Virus record (IMG/VR): IMGVR_UViG_3300007276_005193
Span: 1-28,772 of that record
DNA length: 28,772 nt
Source: a virus
Reading direction: 5' to 3' (one strand)
Made by a program: the position numbers and the translations under genes. Under the pieces are notes generated by a model. It was not told the origin of the DNA and ran no database searches. It saw only the letters and a program-made list of their open reading frames with translations. Of this stretch, positions 20,691 through 28,279 are shown in pieces (position 1 is the first letter of the stretch; the number at the start of each line of letters is the position of its first letter).

Positions 20691-20881
20691 ACTTCTCTTA
20701 CAGCTAATTCATCCTTTGCCAAAGCATATAATATCTCAGCCGGCATATCATCTCTAGCATGTCGCGCAATGTTTGCGACAGTCTCTACAAGTTCTAATTC
20801 AGTATACCCCTTCTTTATCCTGTTTGGGGTAAGTTTACCTTCTTCCACAAGTTCGTTATATTTTTTTATAGAATCACTCAT
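20681..20881 (-). CDS. Small hypothetical protein, 66 aa
   Basis: A helical acidic protein (MSDSIKKYNELVEEGKLTPN, then YTELELVETVANIARHARDD). It has no membrane helix or metal site. It starts in a TAATG overlap with the 119-residue gene and its 3' end carries the -33 element of the next promoter. Unknown function. Confidence 0.6.
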   Translation of the reverse strand: MSDSIKKYNELVEEGKLTPNRIKKGYTELELVETVANIARHARDDMPAEILYALAKDELAVREVCD

Positions 20882-21240
20882 TATAGCCCTTTGGGTTTAA
20901 TTTGTCCATTCTCGTCAAAATACTTATCATGTGTTTTACTACCCTGTGCTTCTATTTTTAGTTTTACTGTAGTTAACTCTTCTGTTACTTCTGTATATCC
21001 GTGGTCTTGCAATTCTTTAATTATAGAGTCAAAACGTATTTGAGTAGATTGTAGTTCCTCTTGTACTGCTGTTTTAAGCACTATTGTAGCTCCTGCTAGA
21101 GCTATTCGTGGGGAAATTTTTCCTCCTATTCCTGCATCTATAGGTAGTTCAAGTTTTGGATCATTATTTATTGGTAAAGATGACATTTCTGCTGCATCTA
21201 TTAGCGCTGTTGCTTGTGCTAAATTTAATGTAATTCTCAT
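20881..21240 (-). CDS. Hypothetical protein, 119 aa
   Basis: This protein begins MRITLNLAQATALIDAAEMS and has an alanine- and isoleucine-rich helical middle (ISPRIALAGATIVLKTAVQE), with a charged C-terminus (KYFDENGQIKPKGL). It is soluble, with no catalytic motif. It lies directly downstream of the structured non-coding region and terminator at 21261-21280, so its expression may depend on read-through or on a promoter hidden in that region. Function unknown. Confidence 0.6.
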   Translation of the reverse strand: MRITLNLAQATALIDAAEMSSLPINNDPKLELPIDAGIGGKISPRIALAGATIVLKTAVQEELQSTQIRFDSIIKELQDHGYTEVTEELTTVKLKIEAQGSKTHDKYFDENGQIKPKGL

Positions 21241-21260
21241 TGTATTTGTTTTTTATAAAA

Positions 21261-21280
21261 CCCCTCCGGTACCGAAAGGG
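21261..21280 (-). terminator. Rho-independent terminator of the chaperone unit
   Basis: On the minus strand CCCTTTCGG and CCGGAGGGG form an 8-9-bp stem with G-U pairs and a tiny loop, followed by TTTTATAAAAAAC. It lies after the histone-like gene and the structured RNA. Confidence 0.6.
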
Positions 21281-21292
21281 TCTTGGTAAATG

Positions 21293-21347
21293 ACCTACCC
21301 TGGTACGCTCGACTAGGTAACGCCTGATCTGTTATAGCGTGGTAGGT
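21293..21347 (-). ncRNA. Candidate structured RNA, 55 nt, in a 168-nt non-coding region
   Basis: On the minus strand ACCTACC pairs with GGTAGGT (7 bp), and directly inside it ACGCT pairs with AGCGT (5 bp, 5-nt bulge on the 3' side). An inner GATCAGG/CCTAGTC stem (6 of 7 pairs, one C-A mismatch) closes a five-base loop, CGTTA. The host region 21241-21408 is clearly richer in G and C than the rest of the window. Its 5' half holds two more short hairpins: TGGC-TTT-GCCA, and GAGG...CCTC. A terminator follows at 21261-21280. I recognise no known RNA family. Confidence 0.6.
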
Positions 21348-21408
21348 ACTTTTAAATATTCGCGCGTGGCAAAGCCAAGAGAGAGGAACGCCCCCTCCCT
21401 TTGCTCGC

Positions 21409-21710
21409 TTACTTGCTCTCTGCTACCGATTCTTTTCGGTAATCCGTAACTAACTTCTTTAGTTCCCCTATTGCTTTTCTAGCGTTAGCTTGAGATTTCT
21501 TAGTAGTTCCGTTGTGCTGTTCTTGAAAGTCTGTAAATAATCCTTCAATCTGTTCGAATAACTCTTGTTTTTTACTCATTGGTTTTGTTTTTTTATTAAT
21601 TTTAGTTTTCGGGTATGACATTTCTGTTTTAATTAACCTACTACCCCTATAGGTCCATGTATTGTAAAGACCGTATTGGTTCTTATATTTTCTAATTACT
21701 AGTTCTTCCA

Positions 21711-21711
<1 letters not shown>
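21409..21711 (-). CDS. Histone H1-like (Hc1-type) protein with N-terminal extension, 100 aa
   Basis: Residues about 45-100 (MSKKQELFEQIEGLFTDFQE, then NGTTKKSQANARKAIGELKK, then LVTDYRKES) match the lysine-rich Hc1-like proteins common in Bacteroidetes and their phages, which bind DNA without sequence preference. The first 44 residues (KYKNQYGLYNTWTYRGSRLI) are an added segment I cannot assign. An internal ATG at 21579 would give the histone-like part alone. The full start overlaps the GroEL stop as TAATG, so it is translationally coupled to GroEL. Confidence 0.65.
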
Positions 21712-23364
<1,653 letters not shown>

Positions 23365-23372
<8 letters not shown>

Positions 23373-23749: not shown

Positions 23750-24169
23750 CTATTTAATTTTAATAGTTTTTGCTTTTTTAGATTCCGCAATGGGAATAAA
23801 TATGTGGAGCAAGCCGTCTTTCATCTCTGCTGTTAAGCTTTCAAGTTCAAACTTAGCTGCTACTTTATATCCTAGGTTGAAAGATCTGGAGGCTAATCCC
23901 TTATAGATGTAGCCGCTATAATCAAATTCTTCGTCATTAGGTTTTTCATAGATGATTTTTAAAAGATCTCCATCAATTTCAAGTTGAATATCTTTTTTAG
24001 TTAGACCAGTACAGGCAACTTCAAAATGAAGTCCTTCATCGTCGTAGTAAATATCTAGCGGGTGTGGTTGTTTGTTTTCAAACGTTGTTGGTTGGAAAAC
24101 TCCGTCTGCCTTGAATAGGTTACGGAATAGTAGGTCGAACGGTGTACGTTCGTTGAATAATGTACTCAT
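23750..24169 (-). CDS. Small heat-shock protein (Hsp20/alpha-crystallin)
   Basis: This 139-residue protein has an N-terminal segment with TPFDLLFRNLF, then an alpha-crystallin domain at about 36-134: HPLDIYYDDEGLHFEVACTG, GLTKKDIQLEIDGDLLKI, and the SRSFNLGYKV strand. DGLLHIFIP (117-125) carries the GxLxIxxP signature. It would bind unfolded proteins and pass them on to ATP-dependent chaperones. Similar genes are found in T4-like phages. It begins a three-gene chaperone module with groES and groEL. A possible hairpin lies in its leader at 24185-24201. Confidence 0.93.
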   Translation of the reverse strand: MSTLFNERTPFDLLFRNLFKADGVFQPTTFENKQPHPLDIYYDDEGLHFEVACTGLTKKDIQLEIDGDLLKIIYEKPNDEEFDYSGYIYKGLASRSFNLGYKVAAKFELESLTAEMKDGLLHIFIPIAESKKAKTIKIK

Positions 24170-27110: not shown

Positions 27111-27368
27111 CTAATTTTCTCCGTAGATATCCCAGATTTCTTCTTCTGGTTCTTCTAGTATTTCTACCTCTTCTACTAGAGCGTATAACTTACCGTTTAG
27201 TGGCTCTAATCTATAGTGCCCTTTAAATTTAGTTTTTCGCATATACTGTGTTAGTGCTTGAACTAACCCTTCAATAACATTATCTCGATCTATTACTAGT
27301 TCCCAATTATCTCCAGGCGGTATTCTTTCTGCTATGAGTTCCTTAACTTCATGAATTTTGGTATCCAT
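27111..27368 (-). CDS. Hypothetical acidic protein, 85 aa
   Basis: The protein has an N-terminal helix (EVKELIAERIPPGDNWELVI), a middle KTKFKGHYRLEPLNGKLYAL, and a strongly acidic tail (EEVEILEEPEEEIWDIYGEN). It overlaps the QueF stop by 1 nt (TAATG), so the two are coupled. No family is recognised, and any link to deazapurine metabolism is only positional. Confidence 0.6.
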   Translation of the reverse strand: MDTKIHEVKELIAERIPPGDNWELVIDRDNVIEGLVQALTQYMRKTKFKGHYRLEPLNGKLYALVEEVEILEEPEEEIWDIYGEN

Positions 27369-28279
27369 TACTGTCTAAGCGTTTTAGCGATTCTGTAATC
27401 TGGGTTAATGAAGAAGTCCGGTATTAGGCTAGCATGAGAAGCTCTGATTGGGTTAATGTCTAATCCACCTCTTCTAGTATATAGACAAGCTACCATTAGC
27501 TCTTCTGGTTCGTATGCATCCATTAAGTGCTTATATACCATTTCACAAATCTCTTCATGAAAATGACTTACAGTTCTATGACTTACGATATACTTTGCAA
27601 GCGAGTCTGCTGATGGTAGTTTTTTACTTTTCATCTTAATAAAAACATCTCCCCAGTCTGGTTGATTAGTTACTCTACAGTTAGATCGTAGTAGGTTAGA
27701 TTTTAGTTTAATTACTCTAGCTTCGTTATCAGTATCTTCTATCGCTAATTGTGTAGAGTCTGATTGGAATGCAGTAAAGTCTATCTGGTCTAAGTCTACT
27801 ATATCTCCTAGATCATGGTAAGCTTTAAAAGTTAGCTCTTCTCTATCTTCATTCGATGTATAGAAACTTACGGTAGTTACTGTCTCTAATAACTCATCTA
27901 AATCTCTTTTTACTCTTGCTTCTATTCCTGAGATGCATTCCATTGCAGTCTCTCCTATTCTAGTCATGTTGTACGAATTTAGATACAGCTTAATTGACTT
28001 AGATTCTACATGGTATTCGCTGTCGGAAGGGCATACGATTTTTAACATTCCTGCTACAGGTTGTCCTTTAGTTGTTATAGCTGATACTTCATAACAATTC
28101 CAGGTATCTACTCCTACAAACGAGTCTGATGTTAGTCCGTAACCTTCTCTATTTAGGTATCGAGGTACTTTCACTAATAGTTTAGGATTGTACTGATCAC
28201 TGTATCCGTCTCCTCCTACTTTACCTAAGTGTTTACCTGCAATTTTTACTACTTCGTCGTAGTTCTTTACTTTTGACAT
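27368..28279 (-). CDS. queF: NADPH-dependent 7-cyano-7-deazaguanine reductase (QueF)
   Basis: At 303 residues this is the long, two-module type also found in E. coli. ESKSIKLYLNSYN (92-104) is the NADPH-side QueF motif in the first half. Cys201 in RSNCRVTNQPDWGD is the covalent nucleophile and Asp208 the acid. SHFHEEICE (238-246) provides His241 and Glu242 for substrate binding. RRGGLDINPIRA closes the site. The enzyme reduces preQ0 to preQ1 with two NADPH. In phages, deazaguanines can replace G in DNA or feed tRNA queuosine. No other gene of either pathway lies in the window. Confidence 0.96.
   Translation of the reverse strand: MSKVKNYDEVVKIAGKHLGKVGGDGYSDQYNPKLLVKVPRYLNREGYGLTSDSFVGVDTWNCYEVSAITTKGQPVAGMLKIVCPSDSEYHVESKSIKLYLNSYNMTRIGETAMECISGIEARVKRDLDELLETVTTVSFYTSNEDREELTFKAYHDLGDIVDLDQIDFTAFQSDSTQLAIEDTDNEARVIKLKSNLLRSNCRVTNQPDWGDVFIKMKSKKLPSADSLAKYIVSHRTVSHFHEEICEMVYKHLMDAYEPEELMVACLYTRRGGLDINPIRASHASLIPDFFINPDYRIAKTLRQ

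Follow-up and report, generated by a model that had tools for sequence, protein, structure and literature searches.

The window, the whole stretch of DNA analysed here, is a virus record of 28,772 bases. The virus is a relative of the Flavobacterium phage immuto group, with groES, groEL and a family A DNA polymerase, and its hosts are marine Flavobacterium-type bacteria. The window also contains genes for a small heat-shock protein (HSP20; 23750-24169) and a QueF-like 7-cyano-7-deazaguanine reductase (27368-28279). We focused on the gap at positions 21241-21408. This gap is 168 nt long and exactly separates two open reading frames (ORFs), 21409-21711 and 20881-21240. On the minus strand, the order is groEL, an ORF of 100 amino acids, the gap and an ORF of 119 amino acids. 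The features are as follows.

Positions 21711-23372, minus strand: groEL (phrog_5725, E 2.5e-164).
Positions 21409-21711, minus strand: ORF of 100 amino acids after groEL, with a weak Hc1-like match and element A 3′ of its stop codon.
Positions 21355-21400, minus strand: element A, a separate structured RNA (GGGAGGGGGCGUU..CUCUCUC..GCCACGCGCGAAU), scoring 48.7 bits (E 1.1e-16) against R1, the element A model, which includes the near-identical homologue L082 and homologue L002.
Positions 21286-21353, minus strand: element B, an orphan abiF/AbiD-type antitoxin-like RNA, matched by models R2 and R3, with relatives upstream of Abi_2 genes.
Positions 21249-21284, minus strand: intrinsic-terminator-like hairpin of 12 bp with an interrupted U tract (UUUUAUAAAAAA; z -3.58).
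Positions 20881-21240, minus strand: ORF of 119 amino acids downstream of the terminator, of no clear family.

Two RNA elements and a terminator in one gap

The initial annotation described a GC-rich non-coding region, and this was borne out. The G+C content of the gap is 0.50, against about 0.30-0.42 in the surroundings. The minus-strand fold of the whole gap was better than that of shuffled sequences (z -3.18), and 1 of 200 shuffles did as well. The plus strand folded no better than shuffles (z 0.24). Three nested minus-strand helices of 7, 5 and 6 of 7 bp had been proposed; they are found exactly as claimed, at 21293-21347, and form element B. The terminator placed at the end of the region corresponds to the 12-bp hairpin 3′ of element B. 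Two further hairpins in the 5′ part were also reported. These belong to element A, which is separate and conserved, and the second hairpin is degenerate in the window copy.

The gap comprises two separate RNA elements and a terminator, not a single RNA. Its structure is more than chance, because elements A and B are kept separately in other phages with compensating changes. The nesting had been judged unlikely to be accidental, and this conservation agrees. Homologues of both elements keep the pairing. Searches of the region with ARAGORN and Rfam gave no tRNA or tmRNA, and Rfam scans at gathering and loose thresholds gave no match for element A or B in the window. At Rfam thresholds, the view that the region is neither a tRNA nor a known RNA family is thus correct. 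The suggestion of a phage small RNA is of the correct class as far as the three helices of element B are concerned.

Element A, a multi-copy RNA of immuto-like phages

Element A combines a G-rich/pyrimidine-rich stem with a small hairpin, C(GAA)G, and the nearly invariant sequence CCACGCGC(G/A)AAUU. At 27 of 80 groEL loci (L002-L029 except L008), it lies 3′ of the small ORF linked to groEL. The element recurs at other sites in the same immuto-like genomes, with up to three copies. In many cases the copy stops 6-13 nt short of a start codon; other copies precede terminators. Among 66 distinct copies, 70 cells were changed on both sides of the pairing, compared with 26.7 upon shuffling. Element A was present in 28 of 30 phage contigs, but this figure is biased, as most of the contigs were chosen for carrying it. 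Rfam comparisons of element A relatives gave chance-level matches only.

An initial pattern scan, with too loose a pattern, gave mainly GC-rich matches attributable to chance. Pattern scanning of bacteria yielded no convincing copy, with one AT-rich match (L257, 20.6 bits). A model scan of 395 genomes produced a single 24-bit match, which resembles coding sequence (L413). A pseudoknot between loop GCG and a 3′ CGCGC is unsupported, because there is little variation on the 3′ side and the loop GCG is missing from several copies. RNAalifold, run on a MAFFT alignment, favoured another pairing, almost without covariation. We conclude that immuto-like phages carry in element A a new RNA element that is conserved, covaries, is present in multiple copies and is unrelated to element B. 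A transposon, ribozyme, riboswitch or integron-like site was considered. Candidate roles are a common operon-boundary element, an element for RNA processing or a further decoy.

Further copies of element A were seen at many loci (for instance L001 4212-4261 and L318 1800-1849). Some lie inside small ORFs of about 60-90 amino acids, in different frames (L305 3371-3418, L319 1944-1992, L317 2029-2082, L310 2069-2118 and others). These ORFs have conserved GWGFD and YSGLPS-type ends, and L281 seemingly encodes the same protein without the insert. In L305, L307, L308, L314 and L322, element A repeatedly flanks a phage protein of roughly 170-200 amino acids (GAFGGSYFG ... RRHPDDDRQIRRW ... HWGY). 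This protein belongs to no Pfam or PHROG family and has distant relatives in Vibrio phages.

Kinship of element B with Abi_2 antitoxin RNAs

The predicted fold of element B is a nested hairpin, as drawn by a fold tool that does not predict pseudoknots. Its parts, listed 5′ to 3′, are these.

Positions 21341-21347, minus strand: 5′ strand of stem P1, ACCUACC, forming 7 bp with GGUAGGU.
Positions 21336-21340, minus strand: 5′ strand of stem P2, ACGCU, forming 5 bp with AGCGU.
Positions 21311-21329, minus strand: apical hairpin P3, GAUCAGG-CGUUA-CCUAGUC, 6 of 7 bp, variable and shorter in some relatives.
Positions 21305-21309, minus strand: 3′ strand of P2, AGCGU, pairing with ACGCU.
Positions 21300-21304, minus strand: 3′ bulge ACCAG, identical in the AbiD-linked RNAs L407 and L409.
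Positions 21293-21299, minus strand: 3′ strand of P1, GGUAGGU; 5 of the 7 pairs are changed on both sides across relatives.

Element B occurs in about 35 virus records, with compensating changes. With a pattern confined to the P2 arms and flanking letters, about 25 true members were identified among virus contigs; a second pattern, for the core and fitting the crAss-like copies as well, identified 32 stretches. The core is invariant across phage copies (ACCACGC...GCGUACCA). The outer stem varies on both sides: ACCUACC/GGUAGGU, AUCUACC/GGUAGAU, ACUUACC/GGUAAGU and UUCUACC/GGUAGGA. Each genome has a single copy, and tandem repeats of the type III ToxI kind were not found. Outside the window group, nearly all copies are in tRNA gene clusters, some of them 5-8 nt 3′ of a tRNA. 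In two crAss-like genomes (NC_055895, NC_055899), the element is upstream of a fibre gene. Among the immuto-like genomes with element A that were searched, only the window and the L002 record have element B. The immuto isolate, the nearest cultured relative, is without it, as are nearly all groEL-bearing relatives searched.

We built a covariance model, R2, from phage copies of element B only, and a general abiF model, R3, without the window. The window copy scores 72.8 bits (E 2.8e-17) against R2, of which it is a part, and 27.4 bits (E 1.3e-6) against R3; like all those from our home-made covariance models, these E-values are rough. R2 matched 6 of 395 Bacteroidia genomes (E<=1e-3). Four of the six matches are upstream of Abi_2 (AbiD/AbiF) toxin genes, at distances of 16, 16, 66 and 92 nt. 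Three of the downstream genes are intact (Pfam Abi_2 PF07751, E 1.8e-54 to 9.9e-59; PADLOC AbiD). The fourth gene, in L407, is also of Abi_2 and contains a stop. From Abi_2 density, we estimate the chance of such a placement to be of the order of 1e-6 per match. In the reverse search, 17 Abi_2 loci were taken from 198 Bacteroidia genomes. Ten had an R2 or RF03085 match directly upstream, and others looked similar by eye.

Element B matches the AbiD-type antitoxin RNAs found upstream of Abi_2 in Bacteroidia in both sequence and structure. Phage and AbiD-linked copies have in common a lead ACAGU, the 7-bp P1, ACGC/GCGU, an ACCAG or CCCAG bulge and a CUUUU(GC) tail. P1 was compared between the copies of phages and those of bacteria: 99.5% of cells were paired, against at most 45% in slid controls. 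Both sides of P1 were changed in 14 cells, versus 2.8 in shuffles. The AbiD-linked RNAs L407-L409 resemble element B in lead, stems, bulge (ACCAG in L407 and L409, CCCAG in L408) and CUUUUGC tail. Element B differs in its outer stem, which is kept paired by compensating changes, in its apical hairpin, which is mostly longer, and in standing without an Abi_2 gene. The literature consulted gave no separate description of these AbiD-linked RNAs.

Canonical abiF RNAs (RF03085, AbiFr, RCd22) can be aligned with element B column by column; in P2, an A-U pair is replaced by C-G, a double change. The window copy has the abiF architecture: an outer stem of 6-7 bp, an unpaired A, a 3-bp inner stem, an apical loop, and a 6-nt internal loop on the 3′ side. 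A U-rich tail and relatives directly upstream of Abi_2 are also shared with abiF RNA. The sequences differ. The abiF internal loop CAAAUC is absent from the window copy, which has UACCAG instead, and CGC/GCG replaces AGC/GCU. In addition, no toxin gene lies alongside, and the Rfam model does not detect element B. The window copy gave no match to RF03085 at its gathering cut-off of 37 bits, and we therefore regard it as a divergent type. An RNA before an Abi_2 gene (L412) itself scores only 25.6 bits against RF03085. Since the R2 matches before Abi_2 have the same stems, bulge and U tail, we conclude from sequence comparison that element B is related to abiF RNA but divergent; it is of the AbiD kind and lies outside RF03085 as drawn by Rfam.

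Two AbiD-type RNAs in Bacteroidia genomes (L410 1501-1555 and L411 1501-1555) have no Abi_2 gene nearby. One of this pair is near a Cas2-like ORF and the other is between HTH and HsdR-like genes. Hence, the solitary state is not unique to phages.

Solitary copies in phages and a candidate counter-defence role

A PF07751 search found no Abi_2 gene in 36 phage records with element B (the window and 35 others). Element B is called an orphan, and a relative rather than a complete system, because no Abi_2 toxin gene is adjacent. Canonical abiF RNAs with a good stem were present in 23 virus records and AbiD-type copies in 7; 28 of these 30 records were without Abi_2, an absence that weighs less in the many virus records that are fragments than in complete genomes. 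The other two do carry the toxin. Solitary RNAs of the Abi_2 antitoxin kind were seen in Bacteroidota phages, crAss-like phages, a T4-like Acinetobacter phage, mycobacteriophages and roseophages. Five cultured phages have intergenic, unannotated matches to RF03085 and no Abi_2 gene.

Acj61 (W04), positions 77198-77234: abiF RNA, RF03085 score above cut-off.
Thibault (W07), positions 90374-90410: abiF RNA, RF03085 score above cut-off.
LittleE (W08), positions 93890-93925: abiF RNA, RF03085 score above cut-off.
Lolly9 (W10), positions 65935-65972: abiF RNA, RF03085 score above cut-off.
CRP-143 (W05), positions 21015-21052: abiF RNA, RF03085 score above cut-off.

Whirlwind and VH-5 score just below the cut-off. 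The weak match in DSS3_MAL1 (15.9 bits) was left out of the counts. In the part of the literature that we searched, abiF RNAs standing alone in phages were not reported; priority is not certain. To go by the title of a paper cited in PMC12737573, a DNA region of lactococcal phage sk1 protects against AbiF. Neither R3 nor a structural descriptor found an abiF-type RNA in the sk1 genome.

The C. difficile abiF-motif RNA RCd22 binds AbiF and neutralises its toxicity in cis and in trans (PMC12373285). Changes that break the stem abolish neutralisation and changes that keep it do not (PMC12373285). According to a review of the PbAbiF structure, the RNase is blocked by nucleotides that the RNA presents in a single-stranded bulge (PMC12737573). 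The invariant bulge of element B may correspond to this inhibitory bulge. Cas13a is held to descend from AbiF (PMC12737573). Element B is probably a solitary antitoxin RNA of Abi_2 (AbiD/AbiF) toxins and a candidate decoy against host abortive infection. We infer such a role for phage Abi_2 antitoxin RNAs in general; a trans-acting antitoxin RNA that selection has retained in phages lacking the toxin is most readily understood as a decoy for counter-defence. Element B would be transcribed during infection, in the window at the end of the groES-groEL transcript and elsewhere from tRNA arrays. As infection stopped host transcription, the host's own supply of antitoxin would fail. The phage-made RNA would then keep the host HEPN RNase toxin bound and inactive.

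Pseudo-ToxI of phage phiTE is a phage-borne, solitary mimic of the ToxIN type III RNA antitoxin. It is mentioned in PMC12926258. In the reading proposed here, element B would likewise be a solitary phage-borne RNA antitoxin mimic. The two differ in that ToxI is a pseudoknot repeat binding ToxN, whereas element B is predicted to be an abiF-type hairpin and its toxin would be a HEPN protein of the Abi_2 family. RNA anti-CRISPRs (Racrs) are solitary CRISPR repeat units encoded as small phage non-coding RNAs (PMC10651486). Racrs and element B are both small phage RNAs that resemble a host defence RNA; Racrs copy CRISPR repeats, not an RNA antitoxin.

Alternatively, element B may derive from an Abi_2 antitoxin RNA and have taken on a new role, such as stabilising transcript 3′ ends, or be the relic of a lost prophage-borne toxin-antitoxin pair. 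The U-rich tail and the position of copies beside terminators or between genes are consistent with this, complete AbiF systems are possible in temperate phages (PMC12373285) and two viral records here do have the toxin. However, a relic would not be expected to retain, across many distant phages, a bulge without variation and stems with compensating changes, and a mere stem would not need the invariant letters of P2 and the bulge. We consider this explanation unlikely. Still less probable is a processing device of phage tRNA arrays, either a self-cleaving ribozyme or an RNase site. Most copies are within or beside tRNA clusters, some 5-8 nt from the tRNA, and theta ribozymes are also small phage RNAs beside tRNA genes (PMC10879173). 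Theta ribozymes are self-cleaving, HDV-like double pseudoknots, unlike element B, whose predicted fold is a simple nested hairpin with one bulge and which has no Rfam match; on these grounds a theta ribozyme was rejected. Moreover, copies are found far from tRNAs, in the window and in crAss-like phages, and before bacterial Abi_2 genes. The earlier proposals of a groEL 3′-UTR regulator or an attenuator of the 119-amino-acid gene fit a region that follows the groEL operon, precedes the next gene and ends in a terminator-like hairpin. They are hardly credible, as element B is missing from nearly all the groEL-bearing relatives searched and sits in tRNA arrays or by a fibre gene in other phages, its bacterial relatives sit before Abi_2 genes, and no conserved alternative antiterminator pairing was found.

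If element B and its kin are indeed solitary antitoxins, free-standing copies of the RNA antitoxin are a means by which phages counter the Abi_2/AbiF family, and such counter-defence RNAs can be recognised from sequence alone. The non-coding RNAs found in the tRNA arrays of phages would then acquire a function. The finding would also extend the principle of Racrs and pseudo-ToxI to a large toxin family. We lean slightly towards a wider view, in which solitary Abi_2 antitoxin RNAs form a counter-defence class common among phages and element A is perhaps a second RNA decoy, or an operon element, directed at another system. The cultured phages Acj61, Thibault, LittleE, Lolly9 and CRP-143 would make the proposal testable at once. 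Tandem pairs of abiF-type motifs, like RCd22 of C. difficile, were also seen (G195 C23 124473-124594; G471 C1 4653-4727; G476 C1 2013-2091).
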